Origin: a virus | IMG/VR virus record: IMGVR_UViG_3300044712_002167 | Coordinates: 1-44,752 of that record | Direction: 5' to 3' (one strand) | Length of the DNA stretch: 44,752 nt | Part shown: piece by piece, positions 3,419 to 17,550 of the stretch | Layout of the letters: the number at the start of each line of letters is the position of its first letter | Numbering within the stretch: position 1 is the first letter of the stretch | Translations under genes and position numbers: made by a program | Notes under the pieces: generated by a model | The model's database searches: none | What the model saw: only the letters and a program-made list of their open reading frames with translations | What the model was told of the DNA's origin: nothing

Positions 3419-4048
3419 ATGTTGGACAGTAGCATCACCCTCGATCAGGTTCGCCAGCTGGCGCCACGGGCTCGCGACATTTATTTGCAGGCATTCGCCC
3501 ACGCTGGGGATGCTCTCGCGCCCTATGGCGTGTTGGAGACCGGGCTGCGGGCAGCTCATTTCATGGCTCAGGTGCTGCACGAAACCGGCGGCCTGACTGT
3601 GCTGGTCGAGAACCTGAACTACACCACGCCTGAGCGGCTGATGGCGGTGTGGCCGATACGTTTTCGCAGTATCGGGGCGGCGCAGCCTTACGTTCGTGCC
3701 CCAGAGGCGCTTGCCAACGCCGTCTACGCCAACCGCATGGGCAACGGCTCTCCGGAGAGCGGCGACGGTTGGGCGTATCGGGGGCGAGGGTTGATCCAGC
3801 TCACCGGGCGCGAGAGCTACGCCCGGTTCGGCGCGCACCTGGGGATCGATCTGGTCGAATACCCCGACCTCGCGACCGACCCCCGCTATAGCCTGCGGAT
3901 CGCCGGGGCCGAGTGGGATGCCGGCGGCTGCAACGCCAAGGCGGATGACGACGACGTGAGCGGCATCACCCGCGCGATCAATGGCGGGCTGATCGGGCTC
4001 TCGGAGCGGCGGGAGTGGCTCGCCCGGACCAAGCAAATCTGGTGTTGA
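3419..4048 (+). CDS. Endolysin, glycoside hydrolase family 19 (chitinase-like muramidase)
   Basis: A 209-residue cell-wall hydrolase that should cleave the glycan of peptidoglycan at the end of infection. The GH19 signature is clear: AQVLHETGGL at residues 50-59 with the likely catalytic acid Glu55, a second acidic residue Glu64, and YRGRGLIQLTG at 120-130, which lines the substrate groove in this family. No signal peptide is visible, so release should depend on the holin downstream. The length is normal for a single-domain phage GH19 enzyme without a wall-binding module. The stop overlaps an in-frame start of the holin gene (TGATG). Confidence 0.88.
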   Translation: MLDSSITLDQVRQLAPRARDIYLQAFAHAGDALAPYGVLETGLRAAHFMAQVLHETGGLTVLVENLNYTTPERLMAVWPIRFRSIGAAQPYVRAPEALANAVYANRMGNGSPESGDGWAYRGRGLIQLTGRESYARFGAHLGIDLVEYPDLATDPRYSLRIAGAEWDAGGCNAKADDDDVSGITRAINGGLIGLSERREWLARTKQIWC

Positions 4049-4059
4049 TGGAGGTGAAA

Positions 4060-4461
4060 ATGTTTGCTGCCCTGCTGCCCTTGCTGACCCCGCTGATCGG
4101 CCGCCTGGTCGATTTGATCCCCGACCCGGTTGCCCGGGAGAAGGAGCGGGCCGCCGCGATCGCCCAGTTGACCACGCAACTGATGCAGGCCGACGCCGGC
4201 CAGAGTGAGATCAACCGCGCCGAGGCCGGCCATGCCAGCCTGTTCGTCGCCGGCTGGCGCCCGTTCATCGGCTGGGTCTGCGGAGCCGCCCTGGCCTATC
4301 AATATGTGCTGGTCCCGCTCGGAATGTGGTTCGCGTTCTTGGCCGGCCACCCGCTGCCCAAACCCCCGACCCTCGACGACACCCTGTGGCAGCTCATGTT
4401 CGGGATGTTGGGAATGGGCGCGCTGCGCTCGATCGACAAGGCGGTTGACCGGAGGAAGTGA
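4060..4461 (+). CDS. Holin, three-TM type
   Basis: A 133-residue membrane protein with hydrophobic segments at the N-terminus (FAALLPLLTPLIGRLV), the middle (FIGWVCGAALAYQYVLVPLG) and near the C-terminus (LMFGMLGMGAL). The charged stretch REKERAAAIAQLT lies between the first two. This matches the Holin_3TMs layout (PF11351). I chose ATG 4060 because GGAGG stands 5 bp upstream; ATG 4048 in the same frame adds MEVK and overlaps the endolysin stop. Two starts five codons apart recall the lambda S107/S105 pair. It is the last gene of the late operon before attP. Confidence 0.75.
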   Translation: MFAALLPLLTPLIGRLVDLIPDPVAREKERAAAIAQLTTQLMQADAGQSEINRAEAGHASLFVAGWRPFIGWVCGAALAYQYVLVPLGMWFAFLAGHPLPKPPTLDDTLWQLMFGMLGMGALRSIDKAVDRRK

Positions 4462-4465
4462 AGTT

Positions 4466-4500
4466 GGGGCGGGTTCGGAGGAAGGCCTACGGCCCGCCCC
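4466..4500 (+). terminator. GC-rich hairpin after the late operon
   Basis: Arms GGGGCGGG (4466-4473) and CCCGCCCC (4493-4500) pair perfectly over 8 bp with a 19-nt loop, 4 bp after the holin stop. No U-tract follows, so intrinsic termination is doubtful. It may mark the end of late transcription before attP. Confidence 0.35.
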
Positions 4501-4513
4501 CTGCCCTCTCAAC

Positions 4514-4706
4514 GTCTAGCCTTTGCCTGTAACCCATTGATTTTGCACTCGTGAACGTAACGAGAAACAGGCTAGATGGACGTTGATTTTATTACAAAGT
4601 CATCCTTCTCTTAATCAGCGGGCCGAAGGTTCGAGTCCTTCATCACCCACCATCTTTTCAATGACTTAGCTGTCTCATCCTGAAAAGTCTAGCCTTTGGT
4701 CTAGCC
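4514..4706. repeat. Arm-type repeats GTCTAGCC flanking the attP core
   Basis: The motif GTCTAGCC occurs at 4514-4521, 4687-4694 and 4699-4706. An inverted TCTAGCC (as GGCTAGA) lies at 4570-4576. Two copies continue with CTTTG. They lie on both sides of the tRNA-derived core, as arm-type integrase or accessory-factor binding sites do in lambda-type attP. The function is inferred from arrangement. Confidence 0.6.
4608..4652 (+). other. attP core: 3' half of tRNA-Lys (anticodon CTT)
   Basis: The segment reads as the end of a tRNA: loop CTCTTAA (4608-4614, anticodon CTT), stem TCAGC, a short variable region, T-arm GAAGG-TTCGAGT-CCTTC, acceptor strand ATCACCC, discriminator A and CCA ending at 4652. 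The bases 5' of the loop (TCCTT) cannot pair with TCAGC and there is no D-arm, so this is not a working tRNA gene. It is the shared core through which an integrase recombines with a host tRNA-Lys gene and restores its 3' end. It lies 74 bp from the end of int. Confidence 0.85.
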
Positions 4707-4725: not shown

Positions 4726-5781
4726 TCACGGTTGTTTCGCGTCGGACTTTTTCGCGACCCGTTTTTGCTGTGCCTCCCTCGCTTCCGTGCTGGACGGCCT
4801 GACGTAAACCCGCAGCACATTTGAGCTGGAGTGGCCGGACATCGCCCTCAATTCTGTGTCGGTTGCGCCGCCGGCCCCCATTTCAGTCAGGGCCGTGCGA
4901 CGCAGGTCGCGGAACTGGAGGGTCTCCGGCAGCTCCGCCAGAGCGCGAATGCGCGCGAATTCGTGGCGGAAAAAATCCGGCTGGTATGGCTTCTGGGTGC
5001 CCCGACAGACGATCACCTGGACTGCGCGACGTTCCATCGCTGACAGGCGAGCCGCCATGGCCGGCGTCAGTGCCGCGTAGACCGACGCTCCGGTTTTGCT
5101 CTGCCGCAGCGTGAACCCCTGGCCGTCGAACTCCGTCCAGGTGAGCCGCAGCACGTCCCCTTGGCGCTGTCCGATATCGTAGGCCAGCTCGACGGCCAGA
5201 CCCAGGGCCGGCTCTCCGTCGGCGTTGGCCGCCTCAACAAATGCCGAGACTTGCTCTGGGCTCCAAACTGCGGTTCGGGCGGCCGTGCCCTTGATCCTCA
5301 TGCCGCGCGCGGGATTGTCGGAGCGCCAACCGCTGTCGTAGGCAAACCCCAGCAGGAGCCGCCAAACCCGCATCATGGACGAGGCCATGCTTTCGCCGTG
5401 CCGCTTCCGCAGCCCGTCATACATATCGACGCACTCGGCCCGAGTGATCAACGCGACGACGGTTTGGCCCGCTTTCTCGCGGAATCTCTCCAGGATATTT
5501 CGGTAGTCCTTTTGAGTTTTAGGGGCTAAATCGATAAAAGACGGGCTGGATAGGTACTTACTTATCAATACTGCGATCGTTGCGACTTCTTCTGTAGGTA
5601 AATTAGCTCGCTTCCGCTCAGCGTCGAGTCGGGTATTTATTTCTTGGGCTTTTCTCGATGCCTCGTTTAAATCCTTCCCAAGAGCCAGAGATTTGAACCC
5701 AAGGGACTTGGCTCCAGCGCTCGGAACCCAATACCACTGTCGCTTTATTTTATGCAAATAGCGAACTTTGAGCGTCACCAT
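4726..5781 (-). CDS. int: Tyrosine site-specific integrase
   Basis: A 351-residue phage integrase that should recombine attP with a host tRNA-Lys gene. An N-terminal arm-binding domain (residues 1-60) is followed by a SAM-like core-binding domain (65-165) and the catalytic domain. Catalytic residues visible are Arg206 (GQRQGDVLRLTW), Lys229 (LRQSKTG), Arg294 (RDLRRT), His317 (SGHSSS) and Tyr326 (RVYVRP). The usual His of HxxR is Arg291 here. I chose ATG 5781, which overlaps the upstream HTH gene by 7 bp; longer in-frame starts only add translated xis antisense. It is the last gene of the leftward operon and points at attP. Confidence 0.93.
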   Translation of the reverse strand: MVTLKVRYLHKIKRQWYWVPSAGAKSLGFKSLALGKDLNEASRKAQEINTRLDAERKRANLPTEEVATIAVLISKYLSSPSFIDLAPKTQKDYRNILERFREKAGQTVVALITRAECVDMYDGLRKRHGESMASSMMRVWRLLLGFAYDSGWRSDNPARGMRIKGTAARTAVWSPEQVSAFVEAANADGEPALGLAVELAYDIGQRQGDVLRLTWTEFDGQGFTLRQSKTGASVYAALTPAMAARLSAMERRAVQVIVCRGTQKPYQPDFFRHEFARIRALAELPETLQFRDLRRTALTEMGAGGATDTELRAMSGHSSSNVLRVYVRPSSTEAREAQQKRVAKKSDAKQP

Positions 5782-6020
5782 TGGACCGATCCCAGACCTG
5801 AATCCTTCGGGGCCGGATTGTGATCGACGATTCCCGACCTGTGGTCGAGCCAGCGCTCGATCGCCGCCGAATCCCACCCCCGCAATATGGGGTCGCGGGA
5901 CGGGAACCCGACCGAGACCAATTCTCCCAGGCGTTTCCCGAACGTGCCGGCGCTCATGCCGAGCCGTCTGGCGACCGCGGCTGCGCTCCATATCCGCGGT
6001 GATATCTCGATTTTATTCAT
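5775..6020 (-). CDS. Small winged-HTH protein, probable excisionase / AlpA-like
   Basis: An 81-residue protein with a helix-turn-helix-like stretch (WSAAAVARRLGMSAGTF, residues 11-27) and a tryptophan-containing segment (LRGWDSAAIERWLDHR). It overlaps the integrase start by 7 bp and the methyltransferase end by 8 bp. Size, fold hints and position directly before int fit a recombination directionality factor or AlpA-type regulator. Excisionases diverge strongly, so the function is inferred from context. Confidence 0.6.
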   Translation of the reverse strand: MNKIEISPRIWSAAAVARRLGMSAGTFGKRLGELVSVGFPSRDPILRGWDSAAIERWLDHRSGIVDHNPAPKDSGLGSVQW

Positions 6021-6921
6021 TGTGCCGACCAGACCTCCGCGCCCCCCTGTGCTGAATCACGCCCTGCTCCGCCATAATCGCCCGGCCGATCAGCTCCGGG
6101 ATTTGCGGGACGACGGCGTTTCCGAGCGCCCGCAATCGGTCCACCCGGCCGGGAAACCCATCAACCACTCGACCCACGTCGGGTTCAGCAGGCCACCGAG
6201 GGTCTCCGAGAGAGGTCTGGAGTTCCGCTCCATCGTGGCTGGCGACGCTCTCCCAGAGCGCCAGTCTCGGCTGGTCGGGGTGGGAAACCGGACGGCCGTT
6301 TGCAAATCCACCCCCCCCTGGCGGGTCTCCGTCTGCGAGGGACCGGAGCCCGCCCGGGCCGTGGGTGTCGGCCAGAGACGAACCGCAGTCGCCAAACCGT
6401 CGCCCGATTTGGCCGTCAGCCCCGCCCGGTTGTGGTTCCCGTTCATGGTCGGGGTAGGCCACAATCCAGACGCGGTCCCGGCGGTGAGGGGCACCAACGG
6501 CGCTCGCCGGAACGCAATGCCATTCCGCGTCATGCCCGATCTCGGCCAGGTCCCCGAGAACCTCTCCCAGCCCCCGTCCAACGAGAGCTGAAACGTTCTC
6601 CAGGAGCGCGTAGGCCGGTCGTACCACGCGAACGGCGTCCACCAGGCGCCGGTAGAGTCCCGAACGGGCGCCGGATAGGCCGGCGCGGAGTCCGGCATTG
6701 GACACGTCCTGGCAGGGGAACCCACCGCACACCACATCCGCTATACCCTCCCGAAGCTGCATCGTGGCGATATCGTCGTGACAGGGGACGTTCGGCCAAT
6801 GCCGCGCCAGCGCCTTCCGGCAGAACGGGTCGATCTCGCAAAACCCGACCGTCCGCAGGCCGGCCCGCTCCAGACCCAGGCTGAATCCGCCGATTCCGGA
6901 AAACAGATCGAGGACCCGCAT
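6013..6921 (-). CDS. DNA (cytosine-5) methyltransferase
   Basis: A 302-residue C5-cytosine methyltransferase. The conserved blocks are in order: motif I LDLFSGIGGFS (residues 4-14, AdoMet binding), motif IV GGFPCQ with catalytic Cys70, motif VI LLENV (107-111), motif VIII with HRRDR, and motif X LRALGNAVVPQ near the C-terminus. The variable region between VIII and X is the target-recognition domain; its sequence specificity cannot be read. I chose the ATG that overlaps the PP-loop gene stop (TAATG). No cognate endonuclease is visible, so an orphan enzyme protecting phage DNA from host restriction is the likely role. Confidence 0.93.
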   Translation of the reverse strand: MRVLDLFSGIGGFSLGLERAGLRTVGFCEIDPFCRKALARHWPNVPCHDDIATMQLREGIADVVCGGFPCQDVSNAGLRAGLSGARSGLYRRLVDAVRVVRPAYALLENVSALVGRGLGEVLGDLAEIGHDAEWHCVPASAVGAPHRRDRVWIVAYPDHEREPQPGGADGQIGRRFGDCGSSLADTHGPGGLRSLADGDPPGGGGFANGRPVSHPDQPRLALWESVASHDGAELQTSLGDPRWPAEPDVGRVVDGFPGRVDRLRALGNAVVPQIPELIGRAIMAEQGVIQHRGARRSGRHNE

Positions 6922-8018
6922 TATTCGCATAGCCCGTAGCTGCTGGAGCACATGGCCGGTTCTGCTGACCGCGATGGATCAAACCCCTTCCTGCCCCGCT
7001 TTGTCTTTGCCCAAAGTGCAGCCGATCTAATATTGCAGGCCTTAAATACTTCTTCAGGAGATGACTCTTTTCCATCTACGTGATGAAAAAACGTAGAGTA
7101 TCCGCGCTTGCTAACAGCGCCTACCCAAAGCTCCCACATCTCCAGCTTATCAATCGCCCACGCCCACCGAAGATCAATGTTGTTTATTCCGTCCTTTGTT
7201 TCATTTATGCACGGCAGGCATCCAACCCGATCCTGCCCGAGGGCATACAGAGGATTTAGAGGAATGCCGCGCGACACAACGAAGTCGATCACCTGTTGGG
7301 CGGTCCACGCCGCAATTGGCCGGACAATCTCCCACCCCTCGGGCGTCCTCTCCCGATCCAGGACATTTGCGCGGCGCAGGCTCTCATCACGTCGCACGCC
7401 CTGCCATGACTCGACATTCCCCCATCCGATCTCAGATTGCAGGTCAAGCATGTATCGATCAAGCGGTCGGCGTTTTAATTCCTGAGTACAAAACTGAGCC
7501 ATGCGCGACGGGAAGCGCCCCTTAATCAGGCAGAGATCAAGGAATGGTATACCTGTCTGACGCATCACTGCGAGCGCCCGCGCTACCCGATCCATAGCCT
7601 TCATTTCTGATAAGGGGTCTATCTCTGGAACCCACTCCCACTTTCCATCTTTAATTGGCCGATATATATTTTCCGGCTTCTGTGGAGAGCATAGGAAGAG
7701 GTCTCCATCTGCTGGCACCCCATCAAAAAACCATCCACCACGGCGGCCAGCCATGAGGTCGCGTGGCCACCGTTTAGCGATATGCCTTCTTCTCCGCTCA
7801 ATATCTTCGGAGAAGTCCGCCCGGACCACATCGATCTTAACACCAAGGCTGTCCTGAAAGGCGCCAAACAGGTATTCCAGCGTCAGCGGATGCTCGTGCC
7901 CGGTGTCCGCAAAGACGAACCGGCAGCGATCGCGGCCATGGCGGTCCAGCGCAAGCAGGGCTGTGGCGGTTGAGTCCTTGCCGCCGGAGACGGAGACGAC
8001 TGCGGTTGGTGGCGTCAT
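6921..8018 (-). CDS. PAPS-reductase-like PP-loop ATPase (possible sulfur chemistry)
   Basis: A 365-residue protein of the phosphoadenosine phosphosulfate reductase/PP-loop family. The ATP-pyrophosphatase loop SGGKDS is at residues 11-16. Four cysteines in two pairs stand out: Cys163 and Cys177 (LCLIKGRFPSRMAQFC) and Cys267/Cys270 (GCLPC). They could hold an iron-sulfur cluster as in DndC-type enzymes. The classical reductase ECGIH motif is absent, so true PAPS reduction is unlikely. The start overlaps the upstream stop (ATGA), and its own stop overlaps the cytosine methyltransferase start. The substrate is unknown; phage members of this family are common but poorly characterised. Confidence 0.8.
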   Translation of the reverse strand: MTPPTAVVSVSGGKDSTATALLALDRHGRDRCRFVFADTGHEHPLTLEYLFGAFQDSLGVKIDVVRADFSEDIERRRRHIAKRWPRDLMAGRRGGWFFDGVPADGDLFLCSPQKPENIYRPIKDGKWEWVPEIDPLSEMKAMDRVARALAVMRQTGIPFLDLCLIKGRFPSRMAQFCTQELKRRPLDRYMLDLQSEIGWGNVESWQGVRRDESLRRANVLDRERTPEGWEIVRPIAAWTAQQVIDFVVSRGIPLNPLYALGQDRVGCLPCINETKDGINNIDLRWAWAIDKLEMWELWVGAVSKRGYSTFFHHVDGKESSPEEVFKACNIRSAALWAKTKRGRKGFDPSRSAEPAMCSSSYGLCE

Positions 8019-8709: not shown

Positions 8710-9626
8710 TTCGGCACCTCCAGATGCTCGCGGCCATCAAGGAGGCGGCCAGCCGCGCCGGCACCCATGCGCACCATTCCATCCATGCTTTTCGCACCAG
8801 GAATAAGCTCGCCCCATTCGCCCCACTGCTTGAAGTGGAACGTCACCCCGGCCGCGGCGCACTGATCCCGCAGCGAGCGAGTCCAGTCCGGGTGCATGGG
8901 GCGGGCGTTGGGGCCGGTCTCGCCGCCGACAATGACAAGGTCCAAATATGACAAGTACTTGCTGAGATCAACTGGCCCCAACAGCGGCTCGCAGCTCACA
9001 AACCGAGTCAGCGCCGGAGTTTTGAGCAGAAGTGGAATGCGCTCATCGGCGACTCGTTGATCTTCGACTGATACGCCGATCCAGACCCTATGCAGTGGCC
9101 AAGGGATCGAATAGTCACATTCAAGCCGATACTTGGTGCACAGGGCGTCAACGGTGTCCCAGACAATGTTGCTGCGGCTACGATGGCTGTCGCTATCTTG
9201 GACACCATCGAGGTAATCAAAAATCCGCTCCGCCCGCTTTGTCAGAAGAAAAAATCGATGCCGAGAGCATAGCGCCATGATCGCAAACAATTGGTCGAGC
9301 CATCCATTCGGGACCCATTCCCCGAACGGGTCTGTCATACTGATGAAATACCCCGCCGGCTTGCGGCGCCGCAGTGGGGCGGTCAGAATGCGCTGGTCCA
9401 AAGTCAGCTCGACCCGCAGGCGACTGGCCGCGGTGTACGGGAGCCCGGTCCCGCCGCTGGCGCCCGCTTTGCGGTTCTGCCGCTCGGAGTAGCAGTGATC
9501 ACACCCCGCCGAGACGCGCTCGCAATGCCAGCCGGTGCGTTCCTGGATTGGGTCGTGGGCGCGGATCGGATTCCAGGAGAATCCCTGGACGCCGTTGGGG
9601 CCGCAGACCCAGGAAATTCCGGTCAT
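8706..9626 (-). CDS. DUF5131 / phage Gp37-Gp68 family protein
   Basis: A 306-residue protein with the hallmarks of the Gp37/Gp68 family: SWNPIR (residues 17-22) followed by Cys35, Cys42, Cys45 in the context VSAGCDHCYSER, then FISMTDPFGEWVP, FFLLTKRAER, VWIGVSVEDQRVADERI and VIVGGETGPNARPMHPDW. The cysteine cluster resembles a metal or radical-SAM-like site, but the reaction of the family is not known. I chose ATG 9626, which overlaps the upstream stop (ATGA); the longer frame to 9908 is only antisense of the pentapeptide gene. Confidence 0.88.
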   Translation of the reverse strand: MTGISWVCGPNGVQGFSWNPIRAHDPIQERTGWHCERVSAGCDHCYSERQNRKAGASGGTGLPYTAASRLRVELTLDQRILTAPLRRRKPAGYFISMTDPFGEWVPNGWLDQLFAIMALCSRHRFFLLTKRAERIFDYLDGVQDSDSHRSRSNIVWDTVDALCTKYRLECDYSIPWPLHRVWIGVSVEDQRVADERIPLLLKTPALTRFVSCEPLLGPVDLSKYLSYLDLVIVGGETGPNARPMHPDWTRSLRDQCAAAGVTFHFKQWGEWGELIPGAKSMDGMVRMGAGAAGRLLDGREHLEVPK

Positions 9627-10141
9627 GCGGCCCTCCCGTCCAGCGCGTAATCGGCGCTGGACTCCGTCGCGAACCAGTCGTTTTCGAGCCGGCGGCGATC
9701 CGGGTGGTTGACAACGAACTCGATCACGTGACGGTAGGTCTCTGCGTGGGGATTGTCGCCGTGGGCCTTCGCGACGAGCGCCAGCAACTCGGACGTGGAA
9801 ACGCACTGTTTGCAACCAACCCACCAGCGCAGGCCAAACGTCTCCGACCAGACGACGAACAAACAGTCCCTGCGTGATCCCTGGGGGCCAACAGTTTGCG
9901 TCCACCACAGGCGACCAACCGACACGCCTAATTTAAAACAGGCGCCGCGCAGGTCGGCCTCGCTCAGATTGGCGTGGCTCAGGTCGGCGTAGCGCAGGTC
10001 GGCGTAGCGCAGGTCGGTGTAGCTCAGGTCGGCGTGGCGCAGGTCGGCGTAGCGCAGGTTGGCACGAATACCTCCCTCCTCTCCGCGCAGCCAAGCCGCG
10101 TGTTTGGCGAGTACGGTTTGGATTTGATTGACGCTGTTCAT
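9623..10141 (-). CDS. Pentapeptide-repeat protein
   Basis: A 172-residue protein. After a short helical lead (residues 1-25), about ten A(D/N)Lxx repeats run from about residue 27 to 68 (NLRYADLRHADLSYTDLR and on) and should form a short right-handed beta-helix. Residues 75-165 form a separate domain with WW, CKQC and HVIEFVVNHPD. The DNA shows the repeats as 15-bp units at about 9945-10075. Some pentapeptide proteins mimic DNA and bind gyrase, but ten repeats is short for that. It overlaps genes on both sides by 4 bp. Confidence 0.8.
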   Translation of the reverse strand: MNSVNQIQTVLAKHAAWLRGEEGGIRANLRYADLRHADLSYTDLRYADLRYADLSHANLSEADLRGACFKLGVSVGRLWWTQTVGPQGSRRDCLFVVWSETFGLRWWVGCKQCVSTSELLALVAKAHGDNPHAETYRHVIEFVVNHPDRRRLENDWFATESSADYALDGRAA

Positions 10142-10647
10142 GCGGCCACCTCGCACGGGGCGGGCAAAAAATATCCCTCGGATTCAAAAAAATCCCGGAG
10201 ACGGGCGGCGGCCTTGACGGCGCTGCGCTCCATTCCCTCCAGAACGTCCCAGTGCTCGGCCATGGCCGCCGCCATCACCTCGTAGGCCCGGACGAAATCG
10301 CACTCCCCGGCGGCCATGATGTCGCGGTCGAATAGCTCTTTCAGCCACACCGCCACCGCGAGGTAGATCTTTCCGGTGGCGGCGTCGGGGCGGGTATCGG
10401 TCTGCCAGAACTCGGCCGCCTCGAATGCCCTGCTGGTCAGCGCGCGGCAGCGGATGGCCAGCTTGCGGCGGCGGATGTGGTCGAGACCCTCGCCCGGCTC
10501 GGCAACGGCGCGTTGGAGCGCCGCAACCACCTCGGCCAGGCCCTCGGGCGTTTGCTGGGGGTGCTCGGCCAGGGCGTTCACCGAGGCAAGCAGCATGCCG
10601 GGGACCAGGGCGCGCTCGACGCGCTGTCGGTCGGTCAGGAATTCCAT
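10138..10647 (-). CDS. Hypothetical protein
   Basis: A 169-residue, mostly helical, acidic-to-neutral protein without membrane segments. GGAG lies 7 bp before ATG 10647. Its stop overlaps the pentapeptide gene start (ATGA) and its start overlaps the preceding small gene by 13 bp. Segments such as AEVVAALQRAVAEPGEGLDH and FVRAYEVMAAAMAEHWDVL suggest a helical bundle. No family recognised. Confidence 0.6.
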   Translation of the reverse strand: MEFLTDRQRVERALVPGMLLASVNALAEHPQQTPEGLAEVVAALQRAVAEPGEGLDHIRRRKLAIRCRALTSRAFEAAEFWQTDTRPDAATGKIYLAVAVWLKELFDRDIMAAGECDFVRAYEVMAAAMAEHWDVLEGMERSAVKAAARLRDFFESEGYFLPAPCEVAA

Positions 10648-11975: not shown

Positions 11976-13481
11976 TTCGAACATCTCAAGGGAGGTTGGG
12001 AGATGACGTGGTTTGACAGTCTGACGCGCCTGTTCCGAAGGACCGAGCGGCATCCGCCCCCATTCCCGGGGGTATTTGTGGCCGAGGGCCTGGATCACGC
12101 CGACGGACCGGATATGGTCGGCGGCAGCAATGCGCCAGATTTGGATCGCTGGCGTAAGAGCCTCGCCCCTGAATCCGACGAGATGGCGGGCACTACATTT
12201 GTGATCGAATACACCGATGCTGGAGGTGTTTCCAGCCGACGCCGGATTACGTTGCAGCGATTGAGTGAGAGCGAATCTGGCGTGACGTATCTCCGATCCT
12301 ACTGCCACGAACGGAAGGCCCCGCGCCTTTTTCGTTTCGACCGGGTGCGGGCGGTTATCGATCTGGACGGAGAATTTCACGATCCGCAGCGGTATTTTTC
12401 CGGCGTCTTGCAGATGGGCGTCAGCCACGGTGCTGTATCGTGGTCTGACCGGGCAGCGGAGCGAGCGCGGCAGGCGGCCGAACAGGCCGGGCTCGAGGCT
12501 GCGCCGCCGCGACCTGGGGCGGCTCAACGAAAGCTGGCTCGCGACGGATTGCGGGTGCTGGCGGCGCTGGCCCGGGCCGATGGAATCATGAACCGGTCCG
12601 AGGTTGCGGTGATCCTCGATTACGTCGTGGGGCGGTCGGAGCGGGCGGGTGTCGTCACCGCCGAGACTGACCGCTCGGCCCTGTCCGCATACATTCGGCG
12701 TCAATACCCGACTAGCGAAATGCTCGACGCATCTCTCACAGCGCTGGAACGCGAGCCTGCCGTGGAAAAGCGGCTTCTGCTCCAGGCCGCAGGGGCTCTC
12801 ATGGACGCCGATGGGGTGCAGGATCCGGCCGAACGCGAAATGCTCAACCGTTTGCGGCAGCAAATGGGGTGACGAGGGTTTCGGGTGGGGCTGCTGGTTT
12901 CCGTCGCCGGCACCAACAAGTTTCGCCGCGCCGGTATCGAGCCAGGCCTGATGCCGCGCAGTATCCTGTTCGTGGTTGAGGGCGGCGGCTTGGAAGGCGC
13001 GCCCCACGCGGTCCGACACCAACGACCAGGCCAAGGAAGCAACGGCCTGCAGCGGGCTGAGGGATGAGTTGTCGTTGCGAATGGCCGCGCGCCAGTCCGC
13101 CAGAAACCAGACGTCGTCATTGACTGCCAAAAACACCAGGGTCTCCTCCGACCAAACCCGTAGGCACACGCCGGGGAGGAAAATGGTCGAAGCGTCGGCC
13201 GGCGCCCCCGGCATCGCGGTGTGATAAGAATTCGCGCGTCTGCCGGGCAGATTCGCGCGTAATGCCGGATCGCGCAATTCCGGGCTCGCGACCAGCGCGG
13301 CGGCTTGCTGCCATAGCCCGCGTTCCGGTTCGTTGGCGCGGTAAACCGCCCCCATCACATCCCGAAAGAGGCCGTGGTGTGGCCCGACACTGAGGGTGGT
13401 TTTCGGCCCCTGCCCCTCCGCCCGCAGCGTCCAGCCGGATGGCGGTAGCGGGCCGATGGTGATGGCGTCGGAGACATTCAT
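11637..13481 (-). CDS. First gene downstream of putative PL; unusually long open frame with doubtful C-terminus
   Basis: The frame opens at ATG 13481, 80 bp below the putative leftward promoter. The first 190-200 residues look like a genuine unknown domain (SDAITIGPLPPSGWTLRAEG; TIFLPGVCLRVWSEETLVFL; FLADWRAAIRN; ALNHEQDTARHQAWLDTG). After about 12,890 the frame is simply the antisense of the + gene 12003-12872 and continues without a stop to 11637, 614 codons in all. Probably the original 3' end was lost when the + strand cassette was acquired, leaving an antisense tail. A frameshift or assembly error near 12,880 is the alternative. Function unknown. Confidence 0.45.
   Translation of the reverse strand: MNVSDAITIGPLPPSGWTLRAEGQGPKTTLSVGPHHGLFRDVMGAVYRANEPERGLWQQAAALVASPELRDPALRANLPGRRANSYHTAMPGAPADASTIFLPGVCLRVWSEETLVFLAVNDDVWFLADWRAAIRNDNSSLSPLQAVASLAWSLVSDRVGRAFQAAALNHEQDTARHQAWLDTGAAKLVGAGDGNQQPHPKPSSPHLLPQTVEHFAFGRILHPIGVHESPCGLEQKPLFHGRLAFQRCERCVEHFASRVLTPNVCGQGRAVSLGGDDTRPLRPPHDVIEDHRNLGPVHDSIGPGQRRQHPQSVASQLSLSRPRSRRRSLEPGLFGRLPRSLRCPVRPRYSTVADAHLQDAGKIPLRIVKFSVQIDNRPHPVETKKARGLPFVAVGSEIRHARFALTQSLQRNPASAGNTSSIGVFDHKCSARHLVGFRGEALTPAIQIWRIAAADHIRSVGVIQALGHKYPREWGRMPLGPSEQARQTVKPRHLPTSLEMFESPSCRRGLGELPRSQEFNKLALSERHKFSDRSQGIRTTPKPKCDTSINDAAIRQLIWRRGLYLDQSRDNLQRILPNHEPGIGRIKEHRPNIKSIAGRVFLYPRQFKSDFAHR
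12003..12872 (+). CDS. Accessory protein with WYL-like and TerB-like domains
   Basis: A 289-residue protein with a strong ribosome site (GGGAGG). Residues 62-120 (TFVIEYTDAGGVSSRRRITL, then YLRSYCHERKAPRLFRFDRV) resemble a WYL-type ligand-binding fold. Residues 175-288 resemble TerB, with ADGIMNRSEVAVILDYV and the second acidic repeat LMDADGVQDPAEREMLNRL. WYL domains often sense nucleotides or nucleic acids in defence and regulatory proteins; TerB binds metal in stress systems. Position as a + strand insert in a leftward region suggests a lysogenic-conversion or defence cargo gene. The role is inference; the domain calls are from pattern recognition. Confidence 0.65.
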   Translation: MTWFDSLTRLFRRTERHPPPFPGVFVAEGLDHADGPDMVGGSNAPDLDRWRKSLAPESDEMAGTTFVIEYTDAGGVSSRRRITLQRLSESESGVTYLRSYCHERKAPRLFRFDRVRAVIDLDGEFHDPQRYFSGVLQMGVSHGAVSWSDRAAERARQAAEQAGLEAAPPRPGAAQRKLARDGLRVLAALARADGIMNRSEVAVILDYVVGRSERAGVVTAETDRSALSAYIRRQYPTSEMLDASLTALEREPAVEKRLLLQAAGALMDADGVQDPAEREMLNRLRQQMG

Positions 13482-13567
13482 GTCGGATTCCCTTGCTGGC
13501 CCTCCCCCCGAGCTTGGACGCTTGCCTTGACGCCGGTTGCGCGGGACATCGGGGGTGGCTGAAAAGA

Positions 13568-13612
13568 ACGGTACAAGATGTTTTGCCCCAAATCAATACA
13601 TTTTGTTTTGCC
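13568..13612 (-). promoter_or_regulatory. Putative leftward promoter/operator (PL), copy of the cro operator
   Basis: Read on the - strand: GGCAAAACAA (13612-13603), -35 TTGATT (13596-13591), GGCAAAACAT (13587-13578), -10 TACCGT (13573-13568), with a 17-bp spacer. The last 20 bases differ at only two positions from 16641-16660 before the cro-like gene, and both the 25-bp repeat spacing and the 9-bp offset of the -35 match. It should be repressed by the same CI/Cro pair and drive the gene starting at 13481. Confidence 0.8.
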
Positions 13613-13800
13613 TGACTGTTTCTCTGGACGACAAAAAGCCAGGCTCAGGGCCGGGCTTGGAGCGGGGGCCGGGGCAGACGGTCGGACACGAAATTCCGCT
13701 CACCGCATTTTTGGAGTTGCCAAGTGCTGCGGAGCGTCCTAATTTTAGGACAGACGAACGGACGGGGGACGGCCCCGCCGAACTGGGCAGGGAGGCCCCG
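13613..13800. other. Control-region gap with palindrome GTCCTAA-TT-TTAGGAC
   Basis: No gene is visible. A palindrome with 7-bp arms and a 2-nt centre lies at 13736-13751, 50 bp before the ATG of the HTH gene at 13801, a position that suits an operator for that gene. A clear sigma70 promoter could not be picked out. Confidence 0.45.
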
Positions 13801-14055
13801 ATGTCATCGAACCCCACCCAGCCAGCCCCTGACAGCCTGCTGGCGCAGACGGGGGTAGCCCTGTGGGGCAGCCGCTGGCAGAGCGATCTGGCGCGGGAGC
13901 TGGGGGTTTCGGATCGCACGGTGCGACGGTGGGTGGCTGGGACTGAGACGCCCAGAGACGGGGTTTACCACGACCTGGCGCGGATCTGCCGTGAGCGCAG
14001 CGGGGCGCTGAGCGAGATCGCGAACCGTCTGATGCAAGCGCACCCTCAACAGTGA
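13801..14055 (+). CDS. Small HTH DNA-binding protein
   Basis: An 84-residue protein starting at ATG 13801 with GGAGG 6 bp upstream. The stretch WQSDLARELGVSDRTVRRWV (residues 24-43) is a textbook helix-turn-helix with a recognition helix VRRWVAG. It heads a four-gene + strand cluster between the two putative operators and may regulate it, perhaps through the palindrome at 13736. The family (XRE-like or resolvase-like) cannot be fixed. Confidence 0.75.
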   Translation: MSSNPTQPAPDSLLAQTGVALWGSRWQSDLARELGVSDRTVRRWVAGTETPRDGVYHDLARICRERSGALSEIANRLMQAHPQQ

Positions 14056-14105
14056 TCAATGGGATGGGCTGTTTCGGCCCCACCCCCAATAAATGGAGAT
14101 CGGCT

Positions 14106-14363
14106 ATGCAATTCGAACTCAGCGATACTTTTGGTGGTGGGATGATTCGCAGCTTCAACGCGCTCGCCCGAAAATTGGCCGGGCGGCGCGGCTACGCCCG
14201 CGTGGTCTACACCCACGACTGTGCCCGATATATGCCCGGGGGCACCATGAAACCAGGCAGGGAGCTGCTGGTGACAATCTGCCGGGCGCCGAGTAAGCGC
14301 GACAGAGAGAACGGGATCACCATAAGCACCGTCGTCAAGGAGGGCTCGGCATGGGCGCGTTGA
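14106..14363 (+). CDS. Hypothetical protein
   Basis: An 85-residue protein (ATG 14106, GGAG upstream) with a mixed fold: LSDTFGGGMIRSFNALARKL, then YARVVYTHDCARYMPGG and ELLVTICRAPSKRD. It overlaps the next gene by 13 bp. No family recognised. Confidence 0.55.
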   Translation: MQFELSDTFGGGMIRSFNALARKLAGRRGYARVVYTHDCARYMPGGTMKPGRELLVTICRAPSKRDRENGITISTVVKEGSAWAR

Positions 14364-14905
14364 GGGAGCTTTTCATCAAGACGTCGATTGCGATCGACGG
14401 TTGGTGGAAAGAGCAGGACCGGCGGAAACTGGACTGGCGGGAGCTGCATCACGTGAAAGACCCAGGGTACGCCTTCCCGTTTTCCTCGGTCCGCGCTCTC
14501 GCCGCAAGCATGCCCAAAGTGGATGACATCTCCGATGAGGACCGGTTTCTTTTGGCGGGGACAGTGGCCATCGTCCTGACCGACGTCCAGCGGTACATCG
14601 CCGATTCTGCGATGGAAATCCTAGGTCGGAAAGCCTTCGGCGAGCGGGAATCCGCCCTGATGGGCGAGTTCAAATTCAGGAGGCTGCTTTCCACGCGTGA
14701 TCACGAAGAAAAGGCAGAGCAATTCCGGCGCATGGTCGCGGGGCTTCCTGGCAGGGCGGTCAATATCGCACACCTCGGAGCCTCAATCTACCTGTGGAAC
14801 GACACCATCAGGGCGGCTTGGGCATTCGATTATTACGGCGCCCATGGGGATGCGCCGTATCTGTTCCCAACCCTGCCGAGACTGCTCCATGATTCAGTGT
14901 CGTGA
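14351..14905 (+). CDS. Hypothetical protein
   Basis: A 184-residue helical protein with a good AAGGAGG site before ATG 14351. Trp and acidic residues are frequent (IDGWWKEQDRRKLDWREL), and the C-terminal third has AAWAFDYYGAHGDAPYLFP. No membrane segment. It overlaps the zinc-finger gene by 17 bp. No family recognised. Confidence 0.6.
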   Translation: MGALRELFIKTSIAIDGWWKEQDRRKLDWRELHHVKDPGYAFPFSSVRALAASMPKVDDISDEDRFLLAGTVAIVLTDVQRYIADSAMEILGRKAFGERESALMGEFKFRRLLSTRDHEEKAEQFRRMVAGLPGRAVNIAHLGASIYLWNDTIRAAWAFDYYGAHGDAPYLFPTLPRLLHDSVS

Positions 14906-15299
14906 CTGCGGTAAATTTTTTGAATTCCTGCCGCCCCATGTTCGACGGGCGCACGGGATGACCGCGGACGAATATCGGGAGCGGTGGGGTATTCCGGCAA
15001 TGGAGCCACTGGCCTCGGCGGAATACGTCGAGGTTGCCCGGAGGCGGATGTTGGGCCTGAGGGCTGCCGGGAAAATCGACAACACCCACCTGCCGGCGGC
15101 GACGACGGCGGCAAGGGCTGCGCCGAAACCGAAGATCGGATCGGCGAAAAAGCGCCATGCTGCGCTGATCGCCGAACTCCGCCCTGGGGATTGGTGCAAA
15201 ATACCTGATGGCGGCAAGCGGAAAGACGGGCGCGACGCCGTCAAGGCCCGGGAAGCGCAGCGCCGACGGCGGGCGGCGCGACGCCAGAGCCGGGATTAA
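14889..15299 (+). CDS. MucR/Ros-like zinc-finger regulator
   Basis: A 136-residue protein. Residues 4-24 give a zinc-finger pattern CRDCGKFFEFLPPHVRRAHG, followed by MTADEYRERWGIP, which is the hallmark of the MucR/Ros family of alphaproteobacteria. The C-terminal part is highly basic (KAREAQRRRRAARRQ). Cellular MucR proteins bind AT-rich DNA as repressors, so a regulatory or nucleoid role is likely. The start is ATG 14889, inside the end of the upstream gene. It ends convergent to the ImmA gene. Confidence 0.75.
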   Translation: MIQCRDCGKFFEFLPPHVRRAHGMTADEYRERWGIPAMEPLASAEYVEVARRRMLGLRAAGKIDNTHLPAATTAARAAPKPKIGSAKKRHAALIAELRPGDWCKIPDGGKRKDGRDAVKAREAQRRRRAARRQSRD

Positions 15300-15330
15300 T
15301 CGGGGGTGGGGACGGAGAGTCGCGGCGGCG

Positions 15331-15858
15331 TCAGGGAGTGACCAGCGGCACCAGGTCCAGCTCTTTCATGCGAATGCGCGCCGCTTCCTGCGATACCTCA
15401 AACGCCTCGGCCATGCCGGAGAGCGAGCAATTTCCGGAATGAAATTGAGCCCTGACCGCTGCGGCGGGCATCAACAGCGAGGCTGCGTACCTATTGGCCT
15501 GTTGTTCCATCACGGCGTCAAGCGACCGCCCGTCTTTCAAGGTGCTGCGATAGAGTCCGTCATCGGTGAGTCCATCCCCAATCAAGTCTCTGTGTAGAAT
15601 ATAATGACCAATCTCGTGAGCAAGAGTAAATCGTTGCCGGCGTGTACTGTGTAACGCATTGACAGTGACGCGGTAACGCACCACTTCTCCTGACTTTCGT
15701 TCGATTTTCCCAGACTCATTATCTGAAAGCGACGCGCTATAGGCCACCTCTATTCCGAGTTCTCGCGCCAAGTCGCCGAGATTTACTGGTGCGTCCTTGG
15801 AGAATGCCAGGACGATCTCACTTGGCGTCAGGTCGAACTGTCTAGCGAGTGTCGTCAC
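15331..15858 (-). CDS. ImmA/IrrE-family metallo-endopeptidase
   Basis: A 175-residue putative zinc protease with HEIGH at residues 81-85 (FTLAHEIGHYILH) and the third ligand Glu118 in MEQQANRYAASLLMP. I chose GTG 15858, preceded by AGAGG, over the TTG at 15876. In ICEBs1 and many temperate phages ImmA cleaves the adjacent immunity repressor and triggers induction. Here it is the third gene of the repressor operon, overlapping the membrane/coiled-coil gene by 17 bp. Cleavage of this particular repressor is inferred. Confidence 0.85.
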   Translation of the reverse strand: MTTLARQFDLTPSEIVLAFSKDAPVNLGDLARELGIEVAYSASLSDNESGKIERKSGEVVRYRVTVNALHSTRRQRFTLAHEIGHYILHRDLIGDGLTDDGLYRSTLKDGRSLDAVMEQQANRYAASLLMPAAAVRAQFHSGNCSLSGMAEAFEVSQEAARIRMKELDLVPLVTP

Positions 15859-16168
15859 GGCTAAATACCTCTGCAATATTTTCGTTGGGCGCCGGCTCTC
15901 TCCCGGATGCCTGTTCCAGCGCGGCCCTGGATTCCCGTGCCGCTACCGAGGTCGCTGTTTCCTTCGCGATTGTGGATGAGGTCTGGCGAGCCATTTCCTC
16001 CGCTGCTCTTCTCGTTGCGTCCCGGATAGTAGCGTACCCCACCACTGCTGCGACCGCCAAAGCAATCGTCAGGGCGTCGGCGATGCCTTCGGCCTGCTCC
16101 TGCGGCATGTGTGCGCTATCACGCAGCTTGCGGGCCAACTTCAAGGTATCGAAGGCGACTGCGCTCAT
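15842..16168 (-). CDS. Membrane/coiled-coil protein in the immunity operon (DUF1640-like N-terminus)
   Basis: A 108-residue protein. The N-terminus VAFDTLKLARKLRDSAHMPQ resembles the start of DUF1640 coiled-coil proteins. A hydrophobic segment (LTIALAVAAVVGYATI) spans residues 33-48, followed by a long Ala/Glu/Arg helix likely to be a coiled coil. AAGGA stands before ATG 16168. Being between repressor and ImmA, it might anchor or control the protease. No such role is documented for it. Confidence 0.6.
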   Translation of the reverse strand: MSAVAFDTLKLARKLRDSAHMPQEQAEGIADALTIALAVAAVVGYATIRDATRRAAEEMARQTSSTIAKETATSVAARESRAALEQASGREPAPNENIAEVFSRDDTR

Positions 16169-16222
16169 GGCGGCTTCCTTGATGCTATAATTATTTCAAT
16201 AATTATATTGAAAAATTAGAAT

Positions 16223-16594
16223 TTAACGTTTTATACCGATCTTTAATACATCATCCCTGATGCCATCTCCAACGGTAGCCAATGCCATCATAATTATTGC
16301 ATTCTGCTGTTCTGGGCTCATCCTCTCATATGCTTCGTGAAGCAGAATTTGACGTTCATCTAGTCTTTTTAAATTTGTCCTGACTCCTGTTTCAAGAAAA
16401 TCAAAGTCCTCATTAAATGCCTTTGCGTACTTTCTCAGGGCTTTTCTGCTTGGCATCCTCTGTCCGTTTTCATTCGATCTATACGTTCCCTCAACCCATC
16501 CAAATGCGCGTGCGGCTGCGGCGGCTGACTCATAGCCTGCCTTAATCCTTGCCTTCTCCAGGCGCATAGCAACGGCTTCTTTCGACGTATCCAT
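16223..16594 (-). CDS. CI-like immunity repressor (HTH only, no peptidase domain)
   Basis: A 123-residue XRE-type repressor. Residues 8-60 contain the DNA-binding five-helix domain (EKARIKAGYESAAAAARAFG, then YRSNENGQRMPSRKALRKYA). The C-terminal part is short and helical; there is no S24/LexA-type self-cleaving domain. It is divergent from the cro-like gene across a 72-bp operator. Lack of a LexA-type domain together with ImmA downstream suggests proteolytic induction by ImmA. The coding sequence is more AT-rich than most of the genome. Confidence 0.85.
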   Translation of the reverse strand: MDTSKEAVAMRLEKARIKAGYESAAAAARAFGWVEGTYRSNENGQRMPSRKALRKYAKAFNEDFDFLETGVRTNLKRLDERQILLHEAYERMSPEQQNAIIMMALATVGDGIRDDVLKIGIKR

Positions 16595-16615
16595 ACCACG
16601 TAACCTACCGCGTTC

Positions 16616-16666
16616 GGCAAAACATCGGGCGTTGACGAATGGCAAAACATTTTGTATCGTTTCGTC
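16616..16666 (+). promoter_or_regulatory. Putative rightward promoter/operator (PR) with two GGCAAAACAT operators
   Basis: GGCAAAACAT occurs at 16616-16625 and 16641-16650, exactly 25 bp apart. -35 TTGACG (16632-16637) and -10 TATCGT (16655-16660) have a 17-bp spacer, and the second repeat fills that spacer. CI or Cro bound there should block RNA polymerase. Transcription should start at about 16667, the first base of the cro-like ATG. The repressor start is at 16594 on the other side. Confidence 0.82.
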
Positions 16667-17071
16667 ATGCTGACCAAGACGATCACCACTATCGCTGAGC
16701 TGGTATCCCATCTCGGGGGCGCGGGGGCGCTCGCTAGGGCCAGGGGAGTGCGGCCGGAGGCCGTACGAAATTGGATTTATCGTGGATCGATCGGTGGGAG
16801 GCACCGAGTGGCATTGAAGGGGATGGCCGACGCGGCCGGCCTTTTGTATTCCGACGCGATTTTTGATCGCGTGATTCAGACAAATCACGTTGCCGCTTCC
16901 CCCACCCATGACGCCCCTCCGCATACGAACGAATGCGGAACCGTGCCACAAACCGTGAACGAACGCAACCTGTTGGGGCCATCTGCGGTTTTCCCTGACT
17001 CCTCAGGTCTCGATCTGAGCACGGCCAATCACGCCGATCATCCCCAACCGAACAACGGGGTTTCTCCATGA
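16667..17071 (+). CDS. Cro-like regulator
   Basis: A 134-residue protein. The N-terminal 55 residues form a YdaS/Cro-type HTH (LVSHLGGAGALARARGVRPE, AVRNWIYRGSIGGRHRVALK). The C-terminal half is Pro/Ser/Asn-rich and probably disordered. It is divergent from the CI-like gene and is the first gene of the early rightward operon. No Shine-Dalgarno is visible and the predicted transcript starts at or next to its ATG, so translation may be leaderless. The last four bases overlap the next start. Confidence 0.82.
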   Translation: MLTKTITTIAELVSHLGGAGALARARGVRPEAVRNWIYRGSIGGRHRVALKGMADAAGLLYSDAIFDRVIQTNHVAASPTHDAPPHTNECGTVPQTVNERNLLGPSAVFPDSSGLDLSTANHADHPQPNNGVSP

Positions 17072-17550
17072 CGCTGTATCGGGCGCCAGGAAGCATTGAT
17101 GCCATCCTGATCCAGACTATCGGCCTGCTCAGCCCGGACGAGGTTCGGCGGGCGACTGGCAAAGACCAGTCTCATTTCTACAAAATCGCCAACCCGGGCA
17201 ACCGCTGGGACCTGCATTTTCGCGACGCCATTGCCCTGGATGCGGCGTTGCTGGCCCGCGGCCAGGCGGCGGCCTTCGGTCCGCTGTTGGCCGAACAGGT
17301 GCAGGAGGTGCAGCAGCGACTGGGTGTCGCACCCCGTCGGCCGGCGCTCGCGCCCGAGACCGCGGTGCGGCGGCTGATGATGGAGCTGGGGCAGTTGGCC
17401 GAGGCGGTGGACCGGGCCATGGCCGACGGCACGGTCACCGCCGCCGAGCGGCGGGATATCTCCCGCGAGGCGCAGGAGATTATCGAGACTGCCCGGGCGC
17501 TGCGGGATTCGGTCGAGCCTGCCCCGGCCTTGCGGTCGGTGGGGGCGTGA
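17068..17550 (+). CDS. Putative early regulatory protein
   Basis: A 160-residue protein directly behind cro, the position of cII in lambdoid phages. Residues 15-50 (IGLLSPDEVRRATGKDQSHF, YKIANPGNRWDLHFRDAIAL) look like a DNA-binding unit. Residues 105-150 are helical (LMMELGQLAEAVDRAMADG, ERRDISREAQEIIETARAL). The ATG overlaps the cro stop. Regulation is inferred from position and the HTH-like part. Confidence 0.6.
   Translation: MTLYRAPGSIDAILIQTIGLLSPDEVRRATGKDQSHFYKIANPGNRWDLHFRDAIALDAALLARGQAAAFGPLLAEQVQEVQQRLGVAPRRPALAPETAVRRLMMELGQLAEAVDRAMADGTVTAAERRDISREAQEIIETARALRDSVEPAPALRSVGA

Follow-up and report, generated by a model that had tools for sequence, protein, structure and literature searches.

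A predicted lambda-like immunity region with twin pairs of 17-bp operators and an adjoining ImmA-type protease gene

The DNA analysed here, an IMG/VR virus record of 44,752 nt (44.75 kb; hereafter the window), carries a 127-bp terminal repeat shared by its two ends, and is therefore considered a circle. Between 13.57 and 16.67 kb it holds a repressor gene flanked by two clusters of short repeats, one inverted with respect to the other. An earlier note had read this arrangement as a lambda-like two-promoter immunity circuit with direct-repeat operators. The locus thus raises two questions: whether one repressor acts on two outward promoters, and which DNA element that repressor would recognise.

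Repeat clusters and predicted promoters

The earlier note had named many equally good matches elsewhere as evidence that would count against its reading. When such matches were looked for, the 9-mer GGCAAAACA was found exactly four times in the whole window, always within the two clusters, whose coordinates bear out two inverted pairs with a spacing of 25 bp:

16616-16625 and 16641-16650, plus strand: repeat copies of the right cluster, 25 bp apart
13578-13587 and 13603-13612, minus strand: repeat copies of the left cluster, 25 bp apart

Three copies read GGCAAAACAT, and the left outer copy is GGCAAAACAA, with a final A instead of T. Each cluster accompanies a predicted promoter:

16632..16660, plus strand: PR, TTGACG-17-TATCGT (TTGACG at 16632-16637, 17 nt, TATCGT at 16655-16660)
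13568..13596, minus strand: PL, leftward, TTGATT-17-TACCGT (TTGATT at 13596-13591, 17 nt, TACCGT at 13573-13568)

The layout of PR is GGCAAAACAT CGGGCG TTGACG AAT GGCAAAACAT TTTG TATCGT, and that of PL, read on the minus strand, is GGCAAAACAA AATGTA TTGATT TGG GGCAAAACAT CTTG TACCGT. The offset of the -35 and -10 elements relative to the repeats is the same in both. From the inner repeat through the -10 element, 18 of 20 bases are identical (GGCAAAACATTTTGTATCGT and GGCAAAACATCTTGTACCGT). The earlier claims of 18/20 identity with TTGA at a matching offset, and of agreement in spacing, phase and promoter position, are thus confirmed. A generic promoter scan of positions 13400-16800 returned PR as the sole sigma-70-like site (about one is expected by chance) and did not flag PL. 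Aside from the trivial terminal repeat, no other 9-mer in the window is repeated with equal spacing at two places, and in third-order Markov simulations no tandem 9-mer ever appeared at two places with equal spacing.

The repressor gene sits between these two outward-facing predicted early promoters, and a cro-like gene is the first to be reached from PR:

16223..16594, minus strand: repressor, 123 aa, HTH_3 (Pfam/PHROGs), recognition helix 35-42 (AlphaFold2)
16667..17071, plus strand: Cro-like protein (YdaS/P22_Cro HTH), with weak Pfam E-values (1.1e-5 and 8.2e-5)

The cro ATG begins 7 nt past the PR -10 element, and the cro mRNA is therefore probably leaderless.

The operator element

A protein search with the repressor led to phages sharing its helix-turn-helix (HTH), and an alignment of four HTHs led to 21 bacterial loci and 30 viral contigs. 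These 51 loci, together with four annotated phages that have a related repressor HTH, made up the motif set, from which the window was excluded. Palindromic expectation maximisation on 43 non-redundant upstream regions, with the model constrained to be symmetric, yielded the 17-bp motif C[GA]ATAC-N5-GTAT[CT]G, with a log-likelihood of 248 compared with 38-51 for shuffled regions. A width of 17 fitted far better than 15, 16 or 18, while widths of 19 and 21 added flanks only.

When the window was scanned with this motif, learned on relatives alone, the predicted operators ranked 1, 2, 4 and 11 among 44,736 positions:

16643..16659, plus strand: OR inner, predicted operator CAAAACATTTTGTATCG, in the PR spacer and covering the -10 (rank 2)
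16618..16634, plus strand: OR outer, predicted operator CAAAACATCGGGCGTTG, whose end supplies the TTG of the -35 (rank 11)
13594..13610, minus strand: OL outer, predicted operator CAAAACAAAATGTATTG, whose end supplies the TTG of the -35 (rank 1)
13569..13585, minus strand: OL inner, predicted operator CAAAACATCTTGTACCG, covering the -10 (rank 4)

Matrices built from near sites only and from far sites only agree on this order (OL outer 1, OR inner 2, OL inner 3-4, OR outer 12-13). The weakest of the four is OR outer, a weak dyad. Only the PL and PR pairs reach a summed score of at least 18 in the window, and no pair in simulated windows scored as high as the weaker of them. A further site at 14123-14139 (score 13.1) is single and lies inside a gene, and was set aside as probably due to chance.

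The held-out scan identifies GGCAAAACA as the promoter-distal half of a 17-bp operator. The other half carries the TTG of the -35 in outer sites and the TAT or TAC of the -10 in inner sites. The predicted operators are, by sequence, imperfect 17-bp palindromes arranged in tandem, not direct repeats. The part of the earlier note that spoke of direct-repeat operators has to be abandoned, as each repeat is the left half of such a palindrome. A 12-bp dyad, CAAAA-N2-TTTTG, was likewise dropped as a window-local reading of the 17-bp motif. True direct repeats, in which a protein reads GGCAAAACA in tandem as monomers or head-to-tail dimers, would agree with the conservation of GGCAAAACA, which exceeds that of any other element in the four sites. 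However, relatives conserve the 17-bp dyad, the second half of this dyad is also recognisable in the right half-sites of the window (GTATCG, GTATTG, GTACCG), and HTH_3 repressors of this fold are generally known to bind dyads as dimers. We thus consider direct-repeat recognition improbable and retain the 17-bp dyad. The left half-sites in the window are all CAAAAC, compared with CGATAC in the family, and operator specificity may therefore have drifted.

No close relatives came up in the viral contigs when the repressor, Cro, CII-like and left-gene proteins served as full-length queries. The exact operator pattern matched three viral contigs, two of the matches being one and the same stretch; all lie within coding sequence of unrelated phages and were discarded as chance. 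The exact double-operator pattern was absent from a genome collection of 84,980 species. The helicase relative L005 has a different, LexA-like immunity region without the repeats, and was also rejected.

Twin operator pairs and repressor specificity across relatives

Among the 43 non-redundant relatives, 31 have a near pair of sites beside the repressor start, and 33 have a second pair downstream of the repressor, 0.3-3.6 kb off and facing outward like PL. An equal span on the opposite side of the repressor held no pair in any relative (0/43), and column-permuted matrices found 0-1. Most pairs have a centre-to-centre spacing of 24-25 bp, and a second class lies at 30-35 bp. In 28/31 near pairs and 31/33 far pairs, the outer site has TTGA or TTGC at its outward end, which indicates that the two promoters of the relatives face in opposite, outward directions. 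Past the inner near operator, an ATG is first reached within 1-13 nt; hence, cro is probably leaderless across the family. The window Cro-like protein resembles ORFs at the equivalent place in relatives. Most loci from a later whole-genome search also carry operator-type sites; L067 coincides with L025 and was not counted as new.

The 5' leaders on the PL side of L009, L013, L027, L035, L042 and others often open with a short hairpin (for example, CCCATCACCCCGATGGGAG), located just past the far operators and overlapping the Shine-Dalgarno sequence right before the first gene. The PL leader of the window folds too.

The AlphaFold2 model of the repressor (pLDDT 90, 28 sequences) places the recognition helix at residues 35-42. 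When the half-site bases from both operator pairs of the relatives are pooled, they covary with repressor residues, with phylogeny-uncorrected z values of 8.7 (residue 39), 6.6 (residue 40), 5.3 (residue 47) and 4.5 (residue 36); residues 36, 39 and 40 fall within the predicted helix. Residues of the Cro-like protein covary with operator bases as well (also phylogeny-uncorrected), which fits an operator shared by repressor and Cro. The operators, their geometry, the conserved twin arrangement and the covariation between repressor and operator emerge directly from sequence and comparison.

An alternative is that the left site might be a duplicated promoter serving a host or Cro-only regulator instead of a repressor-controlled PL. 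The left interval does contain extra rightward genes unseen in relatives, but outward downstream pairs recur in those 33 of 43 relatives and the covarying bases come from both pairs, and this alternative seems to us even slightly less probable than direct repeats. Chance likeness between AT-rich promoter stretches of a GC-rich genome deserves practically no credence: both sites are AT-rich islands and sigma-70 hexamers force part of the match, but the empty simulations and the held-out ranks contradict it. The same predicted switch design, with its recognition sequence, is found again in dozens of unrelated phages, most of them from alphaproteobacteria.

Proposed circuit and comparison with known systems

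The remaining genes that bear on the circuit are the following:

17068..17550, plus strand: CII-like activator (Phage_CP76; Pfam 4.3e-9, above cut-off; PHROG 101, 5.8e-9)
15842..16168, minus strand: 108-aa ORF between repressor and immA
15331..15876, minus strand: ImmA-like M78 metalloprotease with a HEIGH motif (PF06114, E 8.5e-21; PHROG metallo-protease, 1e-23)
14889-15299, plus strand: Ros/MucR-type zinc-finger regulator in the immunity interval
14351-14905, plus strand: Cse2-like protein, 184 aa (Pfam CRISPR_Cse2, E 2.5e-8, above cut-off)
12873..13481, minus strand: first gene from PL, with a good Shine-Dalgarno and a codon-usage signal (no family)
4726..5991, minus strand: tyrosine integrase, with which the mostly leftward block ends (Pfam PF00589, 2.8e-15)

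Rightward past cro and cII lie replication genes, including a DnaB-like helicase, and then terminase. The genes leftward from PL, mostly on the minus strand, include DUF5131, a PAPS-reductase-like gene, a cytosine methylase and the integrase; two plus-strand genes, at about 11.4-12.9 kb, interrupt this block between PL and the integrase.

Very probably, the region 13.57-16.67 kb is a temperate-phage immunity region organised like that of lambda, with one repressor acting on PR and PL. The held-out ranks, the twin pairs of relatives, the recognition-helix covariation and the presence of Cro, CII and integrase lend strong support to this part of the earlier note. The repressor would repress both PR (cro, cII and replication) and PL (the leftward block to the integrase). 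At each promoter there would be two pseudo-palindromic operators of 17 bp, spaced by 25 bp, of which the outer overlaps the -35 and the inner covers the spacer and the -10, and bound repressor dimers would thereby keep RNA polymerase out. During lytic growth, Cro, encoded by the first gene from PR, is probably a competitor for these operators. Binding by repressor and Cro, repression, Cro competition and cleavage by ImmA are what we infer from this layout.

Pfam and PHROGs detect HTH families only in the 123-aa repressor, with no S24 peptidase domain, and its AlphaFold2 model is all-helical past the HTH. Its nearest folds in Foldseek are XRE domains, including ImmR, DdrO, P22 c2, 434 Cro and lambda CI, all with weak E-values, as expected for such a small domain. 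A short XRE repressor adjoining an M78 protease with HEXXH, as found in the window, is a feature of the ImmR/ImmA type. This combination suggests derepression by ImmA-type cleavage and not by RecA-stimulated self-cleavage; by analogy, the adjoining ImmA-like protease probably inactivates the repressor on induction. Most relatives have repressors with a longer C-terminal region that the window repressor lacks, and no M78/ImmA protease was detected in their flanks by a single-sequence search, which could miss divergent ones. In L032, the closest HTH relative, the repressor is split over two frames, HTH then S24-like (3992-4658); it looks like a frameshifted S24 repressor and was not counted as a second S24-less case.

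Several genes in the region merit separate mention:

(i). Four rightward genes lie inside the immunity interval (13801-15299), including the Cse2-like and Ros/MucR-like genes. The Cse2-like protein gave no PDB sequence match. Further cas genes were not noticed, and a Cse2-like gene standing alone in a phage immunity region is an anti-CRISPR candidate.

(ii). The reading frame of the first PL gene (12873-13481) continues without a stop to 11637 and runs antisense across a plus-strand WYL/TerB gene (12003-12872), a possible sign of a frameshift or a sequence error.

(iii). The PAPS-reductase-like gene overlaps the cytosine-5 methylase (6013-8018, minus strand), and the two possibly form a DNA-modification pair. 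The leftward block also encodes a pentapeptide-repeat-like protein (NLRYADLRHADLSYTDL; 9623-10156, minus strand).

It is fairly likely, in our opinion, that a family of temperate phages, mainly alphaproteobacterial and some cyanobacterial, shares one operator architecture (two outward promoters, paired 17-bp dyads with built-in -35 and -10, and a leaderless cro), with specificity readable from residues 36, 39 and 40 and a swappable induction module, which relatives have as S24-like domains and the window phage as a separate ImmA protease. The combination, in the window, of lambda-like twin operators and a repressor of the ImmA type suggests independent exchange of DNA-binding modules and induction modules. 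The literature searched contains little on the operators of alphaproteobacterial temperate phages, and no description of the family C[GA]ATAC-N5-GTAT[CT]G was found. With a motif able to locate PL and PR by sequence, and with the covariation set, immunity groups, meaning which phages are immune to which others, become predictable and testable across many prophages.

Related repressor HTHs occur in Ruegeria phage 45A6, Synechococcus phages Yong-M3-232 and Ssp-JY40, and Microcystis phage Mwe-JY08. Operators of the same 17-bp class lie near and downstream of the repressor in 45A6, Yong-M3-232 and Mwe-JY08. In this group the half-sites differ from those of the window (for example, CGATAC or CTGTAC), the repressors have a longer C-terminal region, S24-like in several, and no ImmA was found in the flanks. 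The window, in contrast, has a short S24-less repressor beside an ImmA-type protease, and cargo that includes the Cse2-like gene inside the immunity region. In Rhizobium phage 16-3, an alphaproteobacterial temperate phage, the C repressor acts at two operator regions, OL and OR, with 434-like operators (ACAA...TTGT). ImmR/ImmA of ICEBs1 and DdrO/IrrE likewise have a short XRE repressor without a self-cleavage domain beside an M78 protease, whereas the window adds twin outward promoters and a Cro/CII circuit.

In lambda, the repressor gene lies between two outward promoters, the PL side leads towards int, and cro and then cII are expressed from PR; each promoter has three operators, tandem 17-bp pseudo-palindromes about 24-25 bp apart that overlap the -35 and -10. 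The window appears lambda-like in the position of its repressor gene, in the order cro then cII from PR, and in its predicted tandem 17-bp dyads of one sequence class, which overlap the -35 and -10 at both promoters. It differs in that two operators are recognised per promoter, with a different sequence; the repressor lacks the S24/LexA-type self-cleaving domain of CI; Cro is of the YdaS/P22 type and CII of the CP76 (186) type; no N-like antiterminator was noticed; extra rightward cargo genes occupy the interval; and plus-strand genes break the leftward block. The predicted circuit is known in kind, and what is new is the operator family and its pairing with an ImmA-type repressor.
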